A stretch of 64,000 nt of DNA from Rhodanobacter sp. OK091 (GTDB lineage Bacteria > Pseudomonadota > Gammaproteobacteria > Xanthomonadales > Rhodanobacteraceae), in contig NZ_FRCH01000002.1 in assembly GCF_900142825.1 (NCBI RefSeq), positions 372,001-436,000 on the forward strand. Direction: 5' to 3'. The position numbers and the translations under genes are program-made. The first letter of the stretch is position 1, and each line of letters opens with the position of its first letter. The notes under the pieces were generated by a model. That model was not told the DNA's origin. It saw only the letters and a list, made by a program, of their open reading frames with translations, and searched no databases. Positions 1 through 9,393 of this stretch are shown in pieces.

Positions 1-2
1 GG

Positions 3-557
3 CTGGCTCTGGGCTGCATCCTCATCGGCGTATTTCCGCAAGTCGCGCTGAATGCCATTGCCGCCGTGACACGGGTGCTGGTGGGTACAGTGATCCAGCG
101 CGGACCCGCTCCCTGGTGGATCGCCCCGGTGGCACGGGAGCAGGCTTCCTATAGCGGCTTGTGGCTGCTGCTTGGCATGGCCGGCACGATCGCGGTGATG
201 TTCGTGCTGGTACGGCGGATGTATCACGGTCGTGTGCGCCGCACGCCGCCATGGAATTGCGGCTACCCCGCGCTGACTCCGCGCATGCAGGACACCGCCG
301 AAGGGTTCGGCCAGCCGATCCGGCACATGTTCGGGCCGTTCTTCCGTATCGCGCGCGAACTGCCTGCGCCGGATGACCGCGCTCCCCGCTACCGCATCCA
401 GATCGACGACCGATGCTGGCACGGGCTTTATCTGCCGCTGGCCCGTGCCGTCGGCTGGCTGGCCGATGCGGTTTCCGTGCTGCAGCGTGGCCGTCTGGCC
501 GTCTATTTGATGTACAGCTTTCTTACCTTGCTGGTCTTGCTGGTATTCGTCCTGTGA
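3..557 (+). CDS. hyfB: HyfB-like proton-translocating membrane subunit, 3' end only
   Basis: The reading frame is open from the window edge, so only the last 184 residues are seen. It belongs to the NuoL/HyfB antiporter-like family: hydrophobic segments surround a cytoplasmic stretch with the family's WNCGYPALTPRMQ-type motif, followed by GFGQPIRHMFGPFF, which is typical of the C-terminus of HyfB. In relatives this subunit forms part of the membrane arm that moves H+ or Na+. The stop codon overlaps the GTG start of the next gene, which implies one translationally coupled operon with HyfC, E, F, G and I. The N-terminal antiporter core lies outside the window, so its catalytic lysines and glutamate cannot be checked. 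Confidence 0.9.
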   Translation: MALGCILIGVFPQVALNAIAAVTRVLVGTVIQRGPAPWWIAPVAREQASYSGLWLLLGMAGTIAVMFVLVRRMYHGRVRRTPPWNCGYPALTPRMQDTAEGFGQPIRHMFGPFFRIARELPAPDDRAPRYRIQIDDRCWHGLYLPLARAVGWLADAVSVLQRGRLAVYLMYSFLTLLVLLVFVL

Positions 558-1507
558 ACGCGCTCGCGCTACTCAGCCAGTTGGGTGGCGCGGTGCTTGC
601 CGTTGCGCTGGCTCCCGTACTGGCGGGCTGGGTCGCGCAATGCCGGGCCTGGTTGCAGAATCGGTCGGCGCCCCCCTTGCTACAGCCCTACCGCAGCCTG
701 CGCAAGCTGTTCCGCAAGGATGCGGCACTGGCCACGTATGCCTCGCCCTTGTTTCGCGCCACGCCTTACGTCGTGTTCGGCACGATGGCCATGGCGGCGG
801 CGATCATTCCCTCGGTGACCACGGATCTGCCGATGGCGCGCGTGGCCGATGCGATCGCCCTGGTCGGCCTGTTTGCGACGGCGCGCGTGTTCATGGCGCT
901 GGCGGCGATGGATATCGGCACGGTGTTCGGCAGCATGGGCGCGCGGCGCGAGATGATGATCGGCTTTCTCGCCGAGCCGGCGTTGCTGATGGTGCTTTTC
1001 AATGCCTTCCTGATGTTCGGCAGCACGGCGCTGCCGACGGTGGTGGAAGACATCTTGAACACCAAGGGGCTGATGCTGCAGCCGAGTCTGGCCTTCGCCG
1101 GGGTGGCTTTCGTGATGGTGCTGCTGGCGGAGAACGCCCGCATACCGATCGACAATCCGGCGACGCATCTCGAAGTGACGATGATCCACGAGGCGATGCT
1201 GCTCGAGTATTCGGCGCGCCACCTGGCGCTCATGGAATGGGCGTCCTGGCTGAAGCTGTTCAACTACGCCTGCATCGGTTTCGCGCTGTTTGTGCCGTGG
1301 GGCATCGCGTTGCATGCGAACGGGCCGCTGGCGTTGCTGTTCGCCGTTGCATGGCTGGCGGCCAAGCTGGTCGTCGCCGGCGCGGTACTGGCGGTGATCG
1401 AGACGGTTTCCGCCAAGTTGCGCATATTCCGCGCGCCGGAGTTCCTGAGCATGGCATTCCTGCTCGCCGTGCTGGGTCTGCTCGTCCATCTGCTGCTGCA
1501 GTCCTGA
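554..1507 (+). CDS. hyfC: HyfC-like NuoH-family membrane subunit
   Basis: This 317-residue polytopic membrane protein belongs to the NuoH/HycD/HyfC family, which anchors the hydrophilic module of complex I-like enzymes to the ion-pumping subunits. Recognisable segments include GSMGARREMMIGFLAEPALL and ENARIPIDNPATHLEVTMIHEAMLLE, the acidic NuoH-type loop. I chose the GTG at 554 because it overlaps the hyfB stop (GTGA) and gives the usual family length of about 315 residues. The open frame extends further upstream, but only by running through hyfB. The next gene begins 3 nt after the stop. Confidence 0.92.
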   Translation: MNALALLSQLGGAVLAVALAPVLAGWVAQCRAWLQNRSAPPLLQPYRSLRKLFRKDAALATYASPLFRATPYVVFGTMAMAAAIIPSVTTDLPMARVADAIALVGLFATARVFMALAAMDIGTVFGSMGARREMMIGFLAEPALLMVLFNAFLMFGSTALPTVVEDILNTKGLMLQPSLAFAGVAFVMVLLAENARIPIDNPATHLEVTMIHEAMLLEYSARHLALMEWASWLKLFNYACIGFALFVPWGIALHANGPLALLFAVAWLAAKLVVAGAVLAVIETVSAKLRIFRAPEFLSMAFLLAVLGLLVHLLLQS

Positions 1508-1510
1508 ATC

Positions 1511-2176
1511 ATGCCTACGCTGACCCTCGCCACCCAGTTCCTGCATGTCCTCGCCGCCGGCCTGCTGATGATCTCGTTCGGCATGCTGGCGCAGCGGCGC
1601 ACGCGCAGCCTCATCGTGCTGCTGGCGTGGCAGGGCGCGGTGCTGACCGCATCGACGCTGCTGGTGGCGATCAGTGCGCACTTGCCGGACCTGTACTACT
1701 CCGCCGCGTTGACTCTGGTGGAAAAAGTCTGGCTGATGCCGTGGATCCTGATGCGGCTCATGCGTCGCCTGGGTATCGAGGGCGACAGCGATCCGCTGGT
1801 GAATATTCCGACCCTGATGCTGGTGGGGCTGGGGCTGGTGATCTTCGCGTTCGGGTTGGCCCAGCCGATCAGTTCGCTGGCCACCACGGTGACCCGGCAG
1901 ACCCTGGGCATCGCCATGGCCGTCATCCTGCTGGCCTTCCTGATGATGATCGCGCGGCACAAGGCGGTCACCCAGGTGATCGGCTTCCTGGCGATGGAAA
2001 ACGGCCTGTTCTTCGCTGCCACCAGCACGACCTACGGCATGCCGATGGTGATCGAACTGGGCATCGCGCTGGATCTGCTGGTCGGCGTGTTCATTTTCGG
2101 CATCTTCTTCTTCCAGATCCGCGAGCAGTTCGACAGCCTCGATCTGCATCAGCTCGAAGCACTCAAGGAGGACTGA
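1511..2176 (+). CDS. hyfE: HyfE-like membrane subunit
   Basis: A 221-residue, very hydrophobic protein that matches HyfE of hydrogenase-4 in length and in its N-terminus (a membrane helix, then LAQRRTRSLIVLLAWQGAVL). Its C-terminal part resembles NuoK-type subunits, with GFLAMENGLFFAATSTTYG carrying the membrane glutamate (E in AMENG) expected in NuoK relatives. It should sit in the membrane arm between HyfC and HyfF. HyfD, which separates C and E in Escherichia coli, is absent. An AAGGAG ribosome site near the end of this gene serves the following GTG start. Confidence 0.9.
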   Translation: MPTLTLATQFLHVLAAGLLMISFGMLAQRRTRSLIVLLAWQGAVLTASTLLVAISAHLPDLYYSAALTLVEKVWLMPWILMRLMRRLGIEGDSDPLVNIPTLMLVGLGLVIFAFGLAQPISSLATTVTRQTLGIAMAVILLAFLMMIARHKAVTQVIGFLAMENGLFFAATSTTYGMPMVIELGIALDLLVGVFIFGIFFFQIREQFDSLDLHQLEALKED

Positions 2177-2177
2177 C

Positions 2178-3629
2178 GTGGAGCTCGTGCTGGTACTGGC
2201 TATCCCCGCGGTTGGCGCGATCCTGCTCGCGCTCGTCGGCGCACAACAGCGTGCCGCGGAACTCAACGTCGTCATCAGCTTCGCCACGCTGATCGCTGCT
2301 GGCGCGCTGGTTCTTCGGATCATCGGCGAAGGGCCGATGACGGTGGCCCACGAGCAGTTCTTCGTCGACCCGTTCAATGTTTTCCTGATCGCGTTGACCG
2401 CGCTGGTCGGCTTCACCACGGCGGTGTTCTCCCGACCCTACATGCGCATCGAGGAAGATCACGGTCGCCTCAACGCGCGTCGCCTGCGGCTGTATCACAG
2501 CATGTACCAGCTGTTCATGACCGCCATGCTGGTGGCATTGTCGACCAACAACATGGGACTGCTGTGGGTCGCGATGGAAGCGGCGACGTTGTCGACGGTG
2601 CTGCTGGTGTCGCTGTACCGCACCCGCGCCAGTATCGAGGCGGCGTGGAAGTACTTCATCCTGTGCGGCGTCGGTATCGCGTTGGCCTTGTTCGGCACCA
2701 TCCTGCTGTATTTCGCGGCGGAGCATCTGCTGGGCGGGGCAGGGATGAGCGCCCTGCTGTGGACGCATCTCGATGCCGTGAAGGAGCAGCTCGATCCCAC
2801 CGTGATCGGACTGGCTTTTGTGTTTCTGCTGGTCGGCTACGGCACCAAGGTGGGCCTCGCGCCTCTGCACAACTGGCTGCCCGATGCCCATGCCGAGGGC
2901 CCGACGCCGGTTTCGGCGGTGTTGTCGGGGCTGCTGCTCAACGTGGCGATGTATGCGGTGGTTCGCTGCAAGATTCTCGCCGTCGGCGCGATGCATTCGG
3001 CGGTGCCTGGACGCATGCTGATGGGTTTCGGCCTGCTCTCGACGTTGCTGGCCGCGTTTTTCCTGTGGCGCCAGCGCGACATCAAGCGTCTGTTCGGCTA
3101 TTCCTCGATCGAGCACATGGGCATCATCACGTTCGCGTTCGGCATGGGTGGTCCGCTGGCGAATTTTGCGGCGCTGCTGCACATGACCGTGCACTCGTTG
3201 ACCAAGTCGGCGATCTTTTTCGCCGCGGGTCATGCATCGCAGATCGCGGGCACGCAGCGTATCGCGGGCATTCGCGGCTTGCTGGTGGTCAGTCCCACCG
3301 TGGGCTGGGGGCTGATGCTGGGATCGCTGGCGATACTCGGCATGCCGCCGTTCGGCGTGTTCACCAGCGAGTACCTGATTCTGACCACGGCGATGCGCGA
3401 TCACCCATGGGCCACGCCAGTCCTGCTGGCCGCCCTGGGTGTAGCGTTCGCCGCAATCTTCGGCCACGTGCAGCCGATGGTATTTGGCGAGACCGACGCG
3501 CGGCCGTTGCCTCATTCGCCTGCGCTGGTGCCTGTGTTTGTCCATTTGTCGATCGTGCTGATGCTCGGCGTGTACATGCCACCCGCACTCGCCGAATGGT
3601 ATCGCGTGGCGGCACACCTGATCGGATGA
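2178..3629 (+). CDS. hyfF: HyfF-like proton antiporter subunit
   Basis: A 483-residue member of the NuoL/M/N and Mrp antiporter family. Family residues are visible: E134 in WVAMEAATL, K224 in VGYGTKVGLAPL, and H231 in the following LHNWLPDAHAEGPTPVSA motif, which is the hallmark of this ion-translocating fold. The start is the GTG at 2178, one base after the hyfE stop and preceded by AAGGAGGA. It is expected to be a second ion pump in the membrane arm, alongside HyfB. The stop overlaps the next ATG (ATGA). With these residues intact, the pump part of the complex looks functional even though the large subunit is not a hydrogenase. Confidence 0.92.
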   Translation: MELVLVLAIPAVGAILLALVGAQQRAAELNVVISFATLIAAGALVLRIIGEGPMTVAHEQFFVDPFNVFLIALTALVGFTTAVFSRPYMRIEEDHGRLNARRLRLYHSMYQLFMTAMLVALSTNNMGLLWVAMEAATLSTVLLVSLYRTRASIEAAWKYFILCGVGIALALFGTILLYFAAEHLLGGAGMSALLWTHLDAVKEQLDPTVIGLAFVFLLVGYGTKVGLAPLHNWLPDAHAEGPTPVSAVLSGLLLNVAMYAVVRCKILAVGAMHSAVPGRMLMGFGLLSTLLAAFFLWRQRDIKRLFGYSSIEHMGIITFAFGMGGPLANFAALLHMTVHSLTKSAIFFAAGHASQIAGTQRIAGIRGLLVVSPTVGWGLMLGSLAILGMPPFGVFTSEYLILTTAMRDHPWATPVLLAALGVAFAAIFGHVQPMVFGETDARPLPHSPALVPVFVHLSIVLMLGVYMPPALAEWYRVAAHLIG

Positions 3630-5179
3630 ATCGTATGTGGCCGGACTTCCTCGACTCTGAATCCGTACCGCTGCGCTCCAACGTGGCGGGCTGCCGCGTG
3701 CTGGCCGACGCCCACCACTGGACGGCGGCGGCCGACGCGCTGCGCGAGGCGGGCGCCAGTCTGTTGTCGCTATGGGGCAGCGACGATCGTGACGTCGACC
3801 GGTGCTTTCGCATTCGTGCGGCCTATCTACTGCCTGATCGCGTTCTCGTGATCGAACACGCGATGCCCGCCGAGCGCGCGGTATACCCCTCTTTGGTGCC
3901 GGGTTTTCCGGTGGCCGATCGCATGCAACGTGCGGTCCACGACTTGCTCGGCATTCGGGCCGACGGCGGCGACACGCGCCCCTGGTTGCGTCATGGTGGC
4001 TGGCCGGAGAAAGTGTTTCCCCTGCGCCGCGATGTCAGCTCGGCGCAAACCTACCCGATCGTCAGTGTGCCGTATCCGTTCGTGCCGGTCATCGGCGAAG
4101 GCGTGCACGAGGTGGCGGTGGGCCCCGTCCATGCCGGCGTCATCGAGCCGGGGCGTTTCCATATCTCCGTGGTAGGCGAGAAGGCACTGCGCCTGGAAGA
4201 ACGTCTGGGCTACACGCACAAAGGTGTTGCCAAGCGTTTTGAGAGCTTCGCCCAACGCGACGGGCATCGTCTCGCGGCACGGGTCAGCGGGGATTCGACG
4301 GTAGCCTTTGGCTGGGCTTATTGCGCGGCGCTGGAGTCCATCACCGCCACAACCTTGTCGCCGCGTGCCGTCGCATTGCGCGCCCTGGCGCTCGAACGCG
4401 AACGCATCGCCAATCATCTGGGCGATCTTGGCGCCATCGGCAACGACGCCGGCTTCGGATTCGGGCTGACCCAGTTCTCGAGCCTGAAAGAACAGCTGCT
4501 TCGCCATAACTCGGAGGTGTTTGGTCAGCGCTACCTGTTCGATTTCGTGGTGCCCGGAGGAGTGGCCTGCGACCTGTCGGTGCGGGCGATACCGACCCTG
4601 CTCGACAAAATCGCGATGCTCGAACGGGCCGTGCATGAACTGCGTTCCATCTATGCCAACCACGAGGGCTTGCAGGATCGTTTTCTCGGCGCCGGCCGTC
4701 TGACGCCCGATCAGGCCCAGACACTGGGCGCTATCGGCCTGGCCGCACGCGCCTCAGGTATCGCCCGCGATCTTCGTGTCGATCAGCCGTGGACACCCTA
4801 CGACAACCTGGCGCCCGTGCTGGCGACGCGCACGGAAGGCGATGTGGCAGCACGCGTCCAGCTGCGCTTTGACGAAACGCTGGAATCGCTGCGGTTGTGT
4901 AGGCAACTGCTGGACACGCTGCCGCAGGGCGAGCTCTGCGCCGAACCACCGATGGCGCCGGCCGGTCAGCTGGGGCTCGGTCTGATCGAAGGATGGCGCG
5001 GCCCGGTGATGGTGGCGTTGGAGACTGGTCCGGAAGGTCGCATCCGGCGTTGCCACCCGCACGACCCTTCGTGGCAGAACTGGCCGCTGATCGAAGTCGC
5101 GCTTCTGGGCAACATCGTTCCCGACTTTCCTCTCATCAACAAGTCATTCAATCTTTCCTACAGCGGACACGACGGGTAA
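3626..5179 (+). CDS. hyfG: HyfG-like NuoC-NuoD fusion without NiFe ligands (Ehr large subunit)
   Basis: A 517-residue fusion: about the first 170 residues are NuoC-like and the rest NuoD/hydrogenase large-subunit-like, as in HyfG and HycE. In true NiFe hydrogenases the active site is held by an N-terminal RxCGxC and a C-terminal DPCxxC. Here the aligned segments read RVSGDS (219-224) and NLSYSG (509-514), so all four cysteines are replaced (S221, S224, S511, G514). The protein also ends where a maturation-protease tail would begin. This is the signature of the Ehr (energy-converting hydrogenase related) group. It should form the hydrophilic module with HyfI; the substrate or electron donor is unknown. 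The ATG at 3626 overlaps the hyfF stop. Confidence 0.88.
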   Translation: MNRMWPDFLDSESVPLRSNVAGCRVLADAHHWTAAADALREAGASLLSLWGSDDRDVDRCFRIRAAYLLPDRVLVIEHAMPAERAVYPSLVPGFPVADRMQRAVHDLLGIRADGGDTRPWLRHGGWPEKVFPLRRDVSSAQTYPIVSVPYPFVPVIGEGVHEVAVGPVHAGVIEPGRFHISVVGEKALRLEERLGYTHKGVAKRFESFAQRDGHRLAARVSGDSTVAFGWAYCAALESITATTLSPRAVALRALALERERIANHLGDLGAIGNDAGFGFGLTQFSSLKEQLLRHNSEVFGQRYLFDFVVPGGVACDLSVRAIPTLLDKIAMLERAVHELRSIYANHEGLQDRFLGAGRLTPDQAQTLGAIGLAARASGIARDLRVDQPWTPYDNLAPVLATRTEGDVAARVQLRFDETLESLRLCRQLLDTLPQGELCAEPPMAPAGQLGLGLIEGWRGPVMVALETGPEGRIRRCHPHDPSWQNWPLIEVALLGNIVPDFPLINKSFNLSYSGHDG

Positions 5180-5185
5180 GCGGGC

Positions 5186-5704
5186 ATGTTCGATATCCTT
5201 TCACGCATCCGCCGCGTTGGCAGCTTGAGCGAACCTCTGCCGTCACCGGACACGGACACCGAACTGACCGCGATCCAGCGCGAGCTGCATGCCGTGTTCG
5301 GGCGGGCCTTGTGCATACGCCATGTCGACGCCGGCTCCTGCAACGGCTGCGAGCTCGAAATCCACGCGCTGAGCAATCCGTACTACAACCTCGAAGGTGC
5401 GGGCATCCGGTTCGTCGCCAGTCCCCGGCATGCCGATCTGCTGCTGGTCACCGGGCCGGTGTCGGTCAACATGGAAGACGCACTCAGGCAGACTTATGAA
5501 GCGATGCCCGAGCCCAAGTGGGTGCTCGCGGTGGGGGACTGCGGCGCGTGCGGGGGGGTATTCAATACCAACTATGCCGTGCGCGGTCCGATCAGCGAAG
5601 TGATTCCTGTCGATGCCGTGGTCAACGGTTGTCCCCCCAGCCCGCTGGCCATCCTGCGCGGTCTTGTATACATCACGCGACACCTCGATCGCCCACGTCC
5701 CTGA
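5186..5704 (+). CDS. hyfI: HyfI-like NuoB-family iron-sulfur subunit
   Basis: A 172-residue NuoB/HyfI homologue. The four ligands of the proximal [4Fe-4S] cluster are intact: C52 and C55 in SCNGCE, C119 in VGDCGACGG and C149 in NGCPPSP. It should pass electrons to or from the catalytic pocket of HyfG, so the complex keeps an electron-transfer function although HyfG cannot bind nickel. It follows HyfG by 6 nt. In Escherichia coli the ferredoxin HyfH lies between G and I; no such gene is present here, so the electron donor may be encoded upstream of the window or be a soluble partner. Confidence 0.92.
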   Translation: MFDILSRIRRVGSLSEPLPSPDTDTELTAIQRELHAVFGRALCIRHVDAGSCNGCELEIHALSNPYYNLEGAGIRFVASPRHADLLLVTGPVSVNMEDALRQTYEAMPEPKWVLAVGDCGACGGVFNTNYAVRGPISEVIPVDAVVNGCPPSPLAILRGLVYITRHLDRPRP

Positions 5705-5745: not shown

Positions 5746-6099
5746 ATGACTCGCAATGACCGTAAAATTGATGAATTGCGCCGACGCATCCCGTCTTTCA
5801 CCTGCATCGTCGGTTGCCACGATTGCTGCGGACCGGTGACGGCGTCGTCGGAAGAAATGGCGAGGCTGCCCGTCAAGACCGAGGCCGAACACGCGAGCGC
5901 GCTGGCCGAGCTGAGCTGTCCGCATCTGGGCCAGCACGGTTGCGAGGTCTACGGGGAACGTCCTCTTATCTGCCGCCTCTTCGGTACAACGCCGCATCTA
6001 CCGTGCCCCAATGGCCGGCGGCCTGTGTACATGATCGACACAAAAACGGAGCAGGAGATTCATCAGTTTCTTGCGCGCACGAGGCAAGTGCTCGTCTGA
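5746..6099 (+). CDS. YkgJ-type cysteine-cluster protein
   Basis: A 117-residue protein of the YkgJ/zinc- or iron-chelating CxxxCxxC family. The cysteines fall in the expected pattern: CIVGCHDCCGP near the N-terminus, CPHLGQHGCEVYGERPLICRLFGTTP in the middle and one CPNG near the C-terminus. Members are thought to bind a metal or a [4Fe-4S] cluster; the biochemical role is poorly known. I chose the ATG at 5746 (MTRNDRK) over the longer frame, which reads back into hyfI. It starts only 41 nt after hyfI on the same strand, so it may be the last gene of the Ehr operon, perhaps with a role in metal or cluster supply; this is inference. Confidence 0.8.
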   Translation: MTRNDRKIDELRRRIPSFTCIVGCHDCCGPVTASSEEMARLPVKTEAEHASALAELSCPHLGQHGCEVYGERPLICRLFGTTPHLPCPNGRRPVYMIDTKTEQEIHQFLARTRQVLV

Positions 6100-6189: not shown

Positions 6190-6293
6190 TTATCCACAGC
6201 GGTTGTGCACGTGTCCGATGAAAGCCTGTGGACAACGTCGCTCAGGCCTTTTGTCGACAGGTACTTGGCACGGCGTGCTGACATTTTGCGCAG
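6190..6293. repeat. 104-nt intergenic repeat, copy 1
   Basis: First of three copies that align without gaps over 104 nt (others at 9164-9267 and 9290-9393). It starts with TTATCCACAG, which is inverted 26 nt later as CTGTGGACAA, and ends with a GCACGGCGTGC hairpin and GCGCAG. It is closest to copy 2. The core AAAGCCTGTGGACAAC is identical in all three copies. It lies just beyond the terminator of the SDR operon and outside any recognisable gene. Function unknown. Confidence 0.8.
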
Positions 6294-9163: not shown

Positions 9164-9267
9164 TTGTCCACCGCATCTGTGCACGTTCACGATGAAAGCC
9201 TGTGGACAACGCGGCTCAGTCCTTTTGTCGACAGACACTTGGCACGGCGTGCCGACATTTTGCGCAG
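9164..9267. repeat. 104-nt intergenic repeat, copy 2
   Basis: Aligns with copy 1 (6190-6293) over its full length at an offset of exactly 2974 nt, with no gaps. It begins TTGTCCACCG, carries CTGTGGACAA at 9200-9209, and keeps CTTTTGTCGACAG and ACATTTTGCGCAG unchanged relative to copy 1. Together with copy 1 it brackets the SDR-SDR-LysR block in direct orientation. Confidence 0.8.
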
Positions 9268-9289: not shown

Positions 9290-9393
9290 TAATCCACAGC
9301 GTTTGTGGAACGTAAGCGGTAAAGCCTGTGGACAACTAAGCTATCTGCCTGACCGCAAAGGCGCTTGTGACGGCGTGCGCAAATGCTGCTCAG
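9290..9393. repeat. 104-nt intergenic repeat, copy 3 (diverged)
   Basis: Aligns without gaps to copy 2 at an offset of 126 nt. Conserved parts are AATCCACAG at the start, AAAGCCTGTGGACAAC in the middle, and CGGCGTGC and CAG at the end; the region between has drifted. Its end lies 14 nt before the PAP2 gene stop. Confidence 0.65.

Follow-up and report, generated by a model that had tools for sequence, protein, structure and literature searches.

The first genes of a 64,000-nucleotide stretch of Rhodanobacter sp. OK091 DNA (contig NZ_FRCH01000002.1, positions 372,001 to 436,000, forward strand; hereafter the window) form a hyfB-C-E-F-G-I cluster whose large subunit, HyfG, has lost the four cysteines that hold the Ni-Fe site of hydrogenases. 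Judged from sequence, the HyfBCEFGI complex is almost certainly not a hydrogenase. It is very probably a member of the Ehr family (energy-converting- or Ech-hydrogenase-related), a relative of complex I and hydrogenase-4, and it probably translocates ions. In one bacterial order, carriage of the cluster is associated with RuBisCO, and some relatives have SulP carrier genes beside hyfB. The reading developed here is of an Ehr-type ion-moving complex that serves inorganic-carbon acquisition; this whole chain is given a probability of about 0.35. The carbon-uptake link is plausible and apparently new; it is statistically strong in one order, and the window's own genome lends it no support.

Relatives of the cluster were collected in a set of 114 loci (the window's own, L003, with L034-L126 and L136-L155), which holds at least two duplicates (L113/L115, and identical HyfG in L105/L155). 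The length and score filters were passed by 113 HyfG, 106 HyfI and 87 HyfC proteins. The original prediction had read RVSGDS and NLSYSG in place of the cysteine motifs of the large subunit, and the coordinates, the frame and the alignment with HycE agree with it. RVSGDS lies opposite RVCGIC, and NLSYSG opposite DPCYSC, of Escherichia coli HycE (PDB 7z0s chain E; phmmer E 3.1e-53), and the same columns were recovered when E. coli HyfG and HycE were placed in the alignment of the 113 relatives. The alignment with group 4 hydrogenases and NuoD, which had been proposed as a check, likewise puts no cysteine of the window HyfG in a ligand column. Across the 113 proteins, the first ligand column (221) holds Ser in 95, Cys in nine, Ala in seven and Val in two; column 224 holds Ser in 91, Thr in 19, Ala in two and Cys in one; column 511 holds Ser in 96, Ala in 12 and Asn in four, and column 514 holds Gly in 108 and Ala in four, each with one gap. 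A single ligand cysteine is left in 10 of the 113, and two are left in none. HyfG had also been predicted to stop where a maturation tail would begin. The C-terminus indeed falls one residue after D516, the end of a matured hydrogenase, in 112 of the 113 proteins; for the last one, the stretch does not include that segment.

The vacated site is occupied by residues of its own. D223 (113/113), N263 (112/113), D267 (113/113), N505 (112/113), K506 (112/112) and N509 (112/112) are invariant or nearly so in the family; E. coli HyfG, HycE and NuoCD have other residues there. The dN/dS ratio is ~ 0.17 for hyfG in two comparisons, one of them between the window and a relative with 77% identity, and 0.09–0.13 for hyfC, hyfE, hyfF and hyfI in one comparison; the closest HyfG with a species name is that of Rhodanobacter lindaniclasticus (76%). 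The new invariant residues together with the low dN/dS of hyfG indicate a site that is working and different rather than a wreck. HyfG, as its columns read, cannot hold a Ni-Fe site as hydrogenases do, and it is under strong selection. An AlphaFold model of HyfG, computed with 24 sequences, has a mean pLDDT of 81, and its top structural match is HycE (7z0s_E, E 1.8e-29, TM 0.84 over the query) followed by NuoCD. The pocket segments 149–198 and 493–517 have pLDDT values below 50, and pocket geometry was therefore left out of the argument. One further column, read from E. coli NuoCD, is what we take to be the quinone-site tyrosine of the complex I 49-kDa subunit. It is Gly222 in the window protein, and Gly in 110 and Ala in three of the 113 HyfG proteins, which makes ordinary quinone chemistry less likely.

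As far as sequence can tell, a hydrogenase is excluded by the loss of the four cysteines, the absence of the tail and the lack of HypD in the genome. The original prediction had proposed a search for hypA-F and a maturation protease elsewhere in the genome; the search made covered HypD (PF01924) alone among the Hyp proteins and maturation proteases, and it found none. In a class-wide sample of 274 genomes, where a carrier was defined by a HyfG match of E about 2e-89 or lower, HypD occurs in 16 of 34 HyfG carriers and in 92 of 240 non-carriers.

Coppi and Marreiros reportedly wrote the founding papers on Ehr. The cluster displays the Ehr features: a large subunit of group 4 type lacking the cysteines, a small subunit with [4Fe-4S] cysteines, and membrane subunits resembling HyfB/F, HyfC and HyfE. 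The cysteine-less large subunit and the matching subunit set bear out the Ehr-type assignment of the original prediction. In the portions available of five papers, Ehr is reported from Geobacter, comammox Nitrospira, Sulfobacillus, candidate phyla radiation (CPR) bacteria and Riflemargulisbacteria (PMC7894505, PMC10284858, PMC4378227, PMC7304191, PMC6349859); these portions describe the loss of the Ni-Fe ligands for the last four groups and Ehr subunits for Geobacter, and they give the function as unknown or only suspected. A tree of 38 proteins was computed from E. coli proteins, the genome's own NuoD and the loci found here. The window type forms one clade (support 100/99), and E. coli HyfG, HycE and NuoD lie outside it. 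The sister group consists of eight proteins of two other cysteine-less lineages, with ferredoxin-type matches in 5/7 of their loci. With only two true hydrogenases in it, the tree does not establish that the cysteines were lost just once. HyfG proteins of the other cysteine-less lineages (L127-L133) have C-terminal ends such as GLTIAGADR and GLSVAENDR, the ferredoxin-type matches fall in L127-L131, and short open reading frames (ORFs) in L127 and L132 presumably resemble DUF190 or CrcB. Two other loci, L102 and L120 (the latter in genome G032), have hyfG with no other hyf genes nearby.

Other functional parts of the complex are retained. The original prediction held that HyfI keeps its four cluster cysteines and HyfF its ion-pumping Lys, His and Glu, and both statements stand. 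Cys52, Cys55 and Cys119 of HyfI align with the ligands of NuoB, HyfI and HycG in 106/106 proteins, and Cys149 does so in 105/105. HyfF retains E134, K224, H313, H339 and E398, and the column of NuoM K265 is Asn, as it is in E. coli HyfF. A loop of HyfC exceeds its counterpart in E. coli HyfC, HycD and NuoH by three residues and carries two histidines, H252 and H259 (numbered from 413), both present in 87/87 relatives. The other cysteine-less lineages have an insertion of equal length but without both histidines. Genes of the ferredoxin-like HyfH/HyfA/NuoI/HycF type gave no tblastn match in 20 kb of the window's locus, and such a gene is unmatched in 193/198 stretches that surround HyfG of the window type; some of these stretches are short or come from the same genome twice. 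The exceptions are L051, L055, L082, L231 and L241, and in L055, L082 and L241 a second or divergent hyfG adjoins the match.

The link to inorganic carbon comes from the neighbours of the cluster in relatives. SulP carriers upstream of hyfB were first seen among 80 named loci. In one of these (L086) a gene resembling gamma-carbonic anhydrase (gamma-CA) lies between SulP and hyfB, in another (L054) a DabA operon (DabA, 796 bits) stands beside the hyf cluster, and the Thiobacillus locus (L066) has a CbbR-like regulator, which scores under its cut-off, together with one weak match of CsoSCA type. Because the list of 80 was ranked by similarity, a fresh sample of 300 genomes was drawn from the order to which the Thiobacillus locus belongs; it partly overlaps the class-wide sample, one RuBisCO hit having identical coordinates in the two. 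With a carrier defined by HyfG at E 1e-60 or lower, the order sample contains 81 carriers. RuBisCO was counted present at E below 1e-100, and 19 genomes (five of them carriers) with E from 1e-100 to 1e-40 were counted negative. RuBisCO occurs in 56/81 carriers and 54/219 non-carriers (odds ratio 6.8, Fisher p 3e-12, uncorrected for kinship).

The 81 carriers have 84 hyfG places, taken in with the exception of one partial match (G629) on another contig. Sixty-seven of the 84 loci could be scored; in the other 17, hyfB or the 2.5 kb upstream lies off the stretch. In 17/67 loci an in-line SulP chain, which may also include gamma-CA-like and SLC13 genes, lies directly upstream and ends at hyfB with gaps of up to 700 bases. 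SulP itself adjoins hyfB in 14 of these, and RuBisCO is present in the genomes of 16 of the 17. Six further loci have a SulP, gamma-CA-like or SLC13 gene nearby, all six in RuBisCO genomes. The number of direct SulP neighbours expected by chance is ~ 0.02, based on a density of 37 SulP genes in 46.5 Mb of 12 carriers, of which seven were picked for a SulP neighbour. On the HyfG tree, SulP linkage (18 loci, L220 counted) takes six changes, five of them forced by supported branches, so that it is not one inherited accident, and it recurs in a distant HyfG clade (L121, genome G177). The set in L121 is incomplete and runs ORF - SulP - hyfF - hyfG; we take the first ORF to be TauE-like. Gamma-CA-like matches were found in 10/84 loci and CsoSCA-like matches in 6/84, the queries being the CsoSCA-like protein and the first SulP from the genome of L221 and the second SulP from that of L178. 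These carbonic-anhydrase-type matches speak for carbon rather than sulfate. In G357 (contig C13) and G585 (contig C1), hyfG is followed on its own strand, after ~ 6.3–6.4 kb, by a RuBisCO large-subunit gene.

Several observations weigh against the carbon link. No SulP, gamma-CA-like or SLC13 neighbour is present in 44/67 scorable loci, and 26 of these 44 are in RuBisCO genomes. The class-wide sample shows no enrichment of RuBisCO (19/34 carriers, 122/240 others) or of DabA (8/34 and 59/240). Among 40 carriers from the window's class and family, SulP adjoins hyf only in the genome of L121, and 13 lack SulP altogether. RuBisCO and DabA are both absent from the window's genome itself, where the only SulP lies on a different contig from hyf. 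Within the carriers of the order, 16/17 SulP-linked loci compared with 32/50 other loci are in RuBisCO genomes (p 0.027, uncorrected); corrected for kinship, the association comes down to five independent pairs, which is not significant and too few for power. The gamma-CA-like protein of L086 falls short of every carbonic-anhydrase cut-off. The two SulP proteins tested score above the NCBIfam sulfate-permease cut-off (447 and 399 bits) and far under the cut-off of 880 bits with the BicA model (149 and 199 bits), and the SulP and SLC13 neighbours may also mean sulfate transport. In open-licence PMC literature, as far as its accessible text goes, no statement of an Ehr-SulP link was found, which is not proof of novelty.

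With these points on the scale, an inorganic-carbon role falls somewhat short of even odds for the relatives in the Thiobacillus order and is rather unlikely for the window's organism. H+ or Na+ would move through HyfB and HyfF, and this movement would be coupled to a reaction at the pocket formed by HyfG, HyfI and HyfC. In autotrophic relatives, as the loci of some suggest, the ion movement might energise bicarbonate uptake by the adjoining SulP. The window's organism, lacking RuBisCO, could use bicarbonate for other carboxylations or the complex for pH balance.

The strongest rival is a generic Ehr redox complex, which we regard as about as probable as the carbon reading. A soluble donor or quinone would exchange electrons with the HyfI cluster, the pocket would handle a small molecule, ions would be pumped, and the carbon neighbours would be a genome-island coincidence in one order. 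A redox step is what the conserved HyfI cluster argues for, and this counts against the carbon reading, as does the class-wide result for RuBisCO and DabA; the conserved charges of HyfC and the antiporter subunits fit as well. Support also comes from the accessible parts of two papers, in which formate-dehydrogenase partners are suggested for Ehr of other lineages (PMC6349859) and a Geobacter Ehr protein is more abundant on formate (PMC7894505). Against a redox complex stand the quinone-tyrosine column, the SulP linkage far above chance, and the scarcity of HyfH/HyfA/NuoI/HycF-type matches (5/198 stretches), since a missing electron-entry subunit does not favour a redox step. The original prediction of a redox complex with an unknown substrate has the invariant cluster of HyfI in its favour and is weakened by the lack of an electron-entry subunit in the gene cluster and by the neighbours of some relatives, which point to inorganic carbon.

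Energised CO2 hydration is improbable. In this reading the complex itself would make bicarbonate from CO2 where the Ni-Fe site used to be. The drive would come from the proton-motive force or from electrons, as in DAB and NDH-1MS, which use different catalytic subunits. The invariant polar residues of HyfG (D223, N263, D267, N505, K506 and N509) and of HyfC (H252 and H259), the cluster without an electron-entry subunit and the carbon-related neighbours at relatives' loci agree with such a role, and DAB2 is described in the available text of PMC13144422 as a carbonic anhydrase driven by proton-motive force with a NuoL-like subunit. The two HyfG pocket segments are of low confidence in the model, however, carbonic-anhydrase-like genes are encoded separately alongside in several loci, and the invariant HyfI cluster is left unexplained. 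It would be a bold conjecture that the Ehr lineage is a third complex-I-derived CO2-uptake machine besides DAB and NDH-1MS, in which the Asp, Asn and Lys residues of HyfG and the two HyfC-loop histidines would, in the former Ni-Fe pocket, convert CO2 to bicarbonate or gate bicarbonate, driven by ion flow through HyfB and HyfF and working with SulP and carbonic anhydrases.

An active [NiFe] hydrogenase with unusual ligation is very improbable and was rejected on the sequence evidence: HyfB and HyfF score above the hydrogenase-4 model cut-offs and the nearest fold is HycE, but all four ligand columns are altered, the tail is absent and the genome lacks HypD. The warning against an automatic hydrogenase-4 label applies to those two membrane subunits; HyfG passes no NCBIfam cut-off (NuoD-type models match, under theirs), and HyfI narrowly passes that of a NuoB model. 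A decaying remnant is hardly credible and was also rejected, for although the spread is patchy (7/59 sampled genomes of the family, 2/4 of the genus), the dN/dS values of hyfG and of hyfC, E, F and I are low and the family-specific residues are invariant across the 113 members.

The coordinates of the cluster are collected in Table 1. The genes lie on one strand and overlap or are separated by a few bases; hyfG, a single ORF of 517 residues with an ATG start, overlaps the hyfF stop. The gene set B-C-E-F-G-I and the absence of HyfD and HyfH from their usual places had been predicted correctly, and the cluster gene map has neither a second antiporter gene in the place of HyfD nor a HyfH-type gene. 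The correction concerns hyfB, most of which lies upstream of the window: the whole gene occupies contig positions 370548-372557, and only its final 557 bases are inside. Some neighbourhood gene maps rest on an in-house choice of ORFs and miss genes.

Table 1 Features of the hyf cluster and its 3' neighbour (positions in the window).
Feature	Position	Strand	Description and evidence
hyfB, C-terminal part	1..557	+	NuoL/HyfB-like antiporter subunit; NCBIfam NF005086 hydrogenase 4 subunit B, 873 bits (cut-off 667)
hyfC	554..1507	+	NuoH/HycD-like; Pfam NADHdh E 2.7e-29; probable GTG start at 554, overlapping the hyfB stop
hyfC family-specific His codons	1166-1168, 1187-1189	+	family alignment
hyfE	1511..2176	+	hydrogenase-4 membrane subunit type; NCBIfam NF008556, 86 bits (under its cut-off of 136)
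hyfF	2178..3629	+	NuoM/N-like antiporter subunit, GTG start; NCBIfam NF005045 hydrogenase 4 subunit F, 841 bits (cut-off 543)
hyfG / ehrL	3626..5179	+	large subunit, fused 30-kDa and 49-kDa domains, without Ni-Fe cysteines
RVSGDS codons in place of RxCGxC	4280..4297	+	D223 codon at 4292-4294
C-terminal motif NKSxNxSYSGxD, residues 505-516, in place of xGSxDPCxSCxD	5138..5173	+	alignment
hyfI / ehrS	5186..5704	+	NuoB/HycG-like small subunit; Pfam Oxidored_q6 E 1.8e-30; NCBIfam NF005012 NuoB, 118.1 bits (cut-off 116)
hyfI [4Fe-4S] Cys codons	starting 5339, 5348, 5540, 5630	+	alignment
CxxCxxCC-domain protein gene	5746..6099	+	~ 40 bases 3' of hyfI; Pfam PF03692, 36 bits (cut-off 23)

The CxxCxxCC-domain protein may be a partner of the complex in assembly or in metal handling. 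A homologue is near hyf in 4/114 loci, the window's included, and in 1/84 order-sample loci; loci with such a gene (the window, L049, L075, L080 and L235) fall in several HyfG branches. Upstream of the cluster are a nirB-type nitrite reductase gene, a major facilitator superfamily (MFS) transporter gene and, on the opposite strand, a small regulator gene (contig 369070-369312), which we take to be of the ribbon-helix-helix (RHH), CopG-like type. RHH-type homologues occur in 25/114 loci, mostly directly upstream of hyfB, and an XRE-like regulator in 12; a polyamine-aminopropyltransferase-like gene is near hyf in 15/114 loci (L049, L050, L074, L075, L080 and L091 among them). As clues to function, the polyamine-synthase-like, RHH, XRE and metG-type neighbours were set aside as local or regulatory. 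Further downstream in the window, a 104-base direct repeat is present three times (6190-6293, 9164-9267 and 9290-9393; the latter two with 87% and 62% identity to the first), around what are presumably two ORFs of SDR type and one of LysR type.

The lead towards bicarbonate or CO2 uptake, with the loci listed, makes the function of Ehr experimentally testable. It would put right the hydrogenase annotation of, for example, Gallionella, Thiobacillus and Nitrospirae genomes and, if true, would add to how non-cyanobacterial autotrophs concentrate carbon.

In comparison with Ehr, as the available descriptions have it, the window cluster shares a group-4-like large subunit without CxxC motifs and the complex-I- and HyfE-like membrane subunits; it differs in its order B-C-E-F-G-I without a ferredoxin-like gene and in its own clade beside two other cysteine-less lineages. 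Hydrogenase 4 and formate hydrogenlyase of E. coli (Hyf, Hyc) have six homologous subunits and provide the closest solved structure, 7z0s, whereas the window cluster is without the Ni-Fe ligands, the maturation tail, HyfA/HyfH, HyfD and HypD. Complex I (Nuo) has the NuoB-, CD-, H- and L/M-type parts, the cluster cysteines and the ion path in common with it, but the window cluster contains no NADH or ferredoxin modules and has Gly or Ala in the quinone-tyrosine column. The large subunits of the archaeal membrane-bound hydrogenase 6cfw and of 6u8y, which we take to be a sulfane reductase, match the family profile with E values of 7e-59 and 3.5e-41, respectively; they are more distant than HycE. 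In DAB (DabAB) and cyanobacterial NDH-1MS, complex-I-type antiporter subunits serve CO2 uptake, according to the accessible text of PMC13144422; unlike DAB, neither the window's cluster nor its genome has DabA (PF10070). The same set by gene name, hyfBCEFG, occurs in Acidithiobacillus caldus as an island copy beside a beta-carbonic anhydrase and as a core-genome copy with carbon-fixation genes, and in the portion of that paper available both copies are taken for hydrogenases by the authors (PMC3826726).

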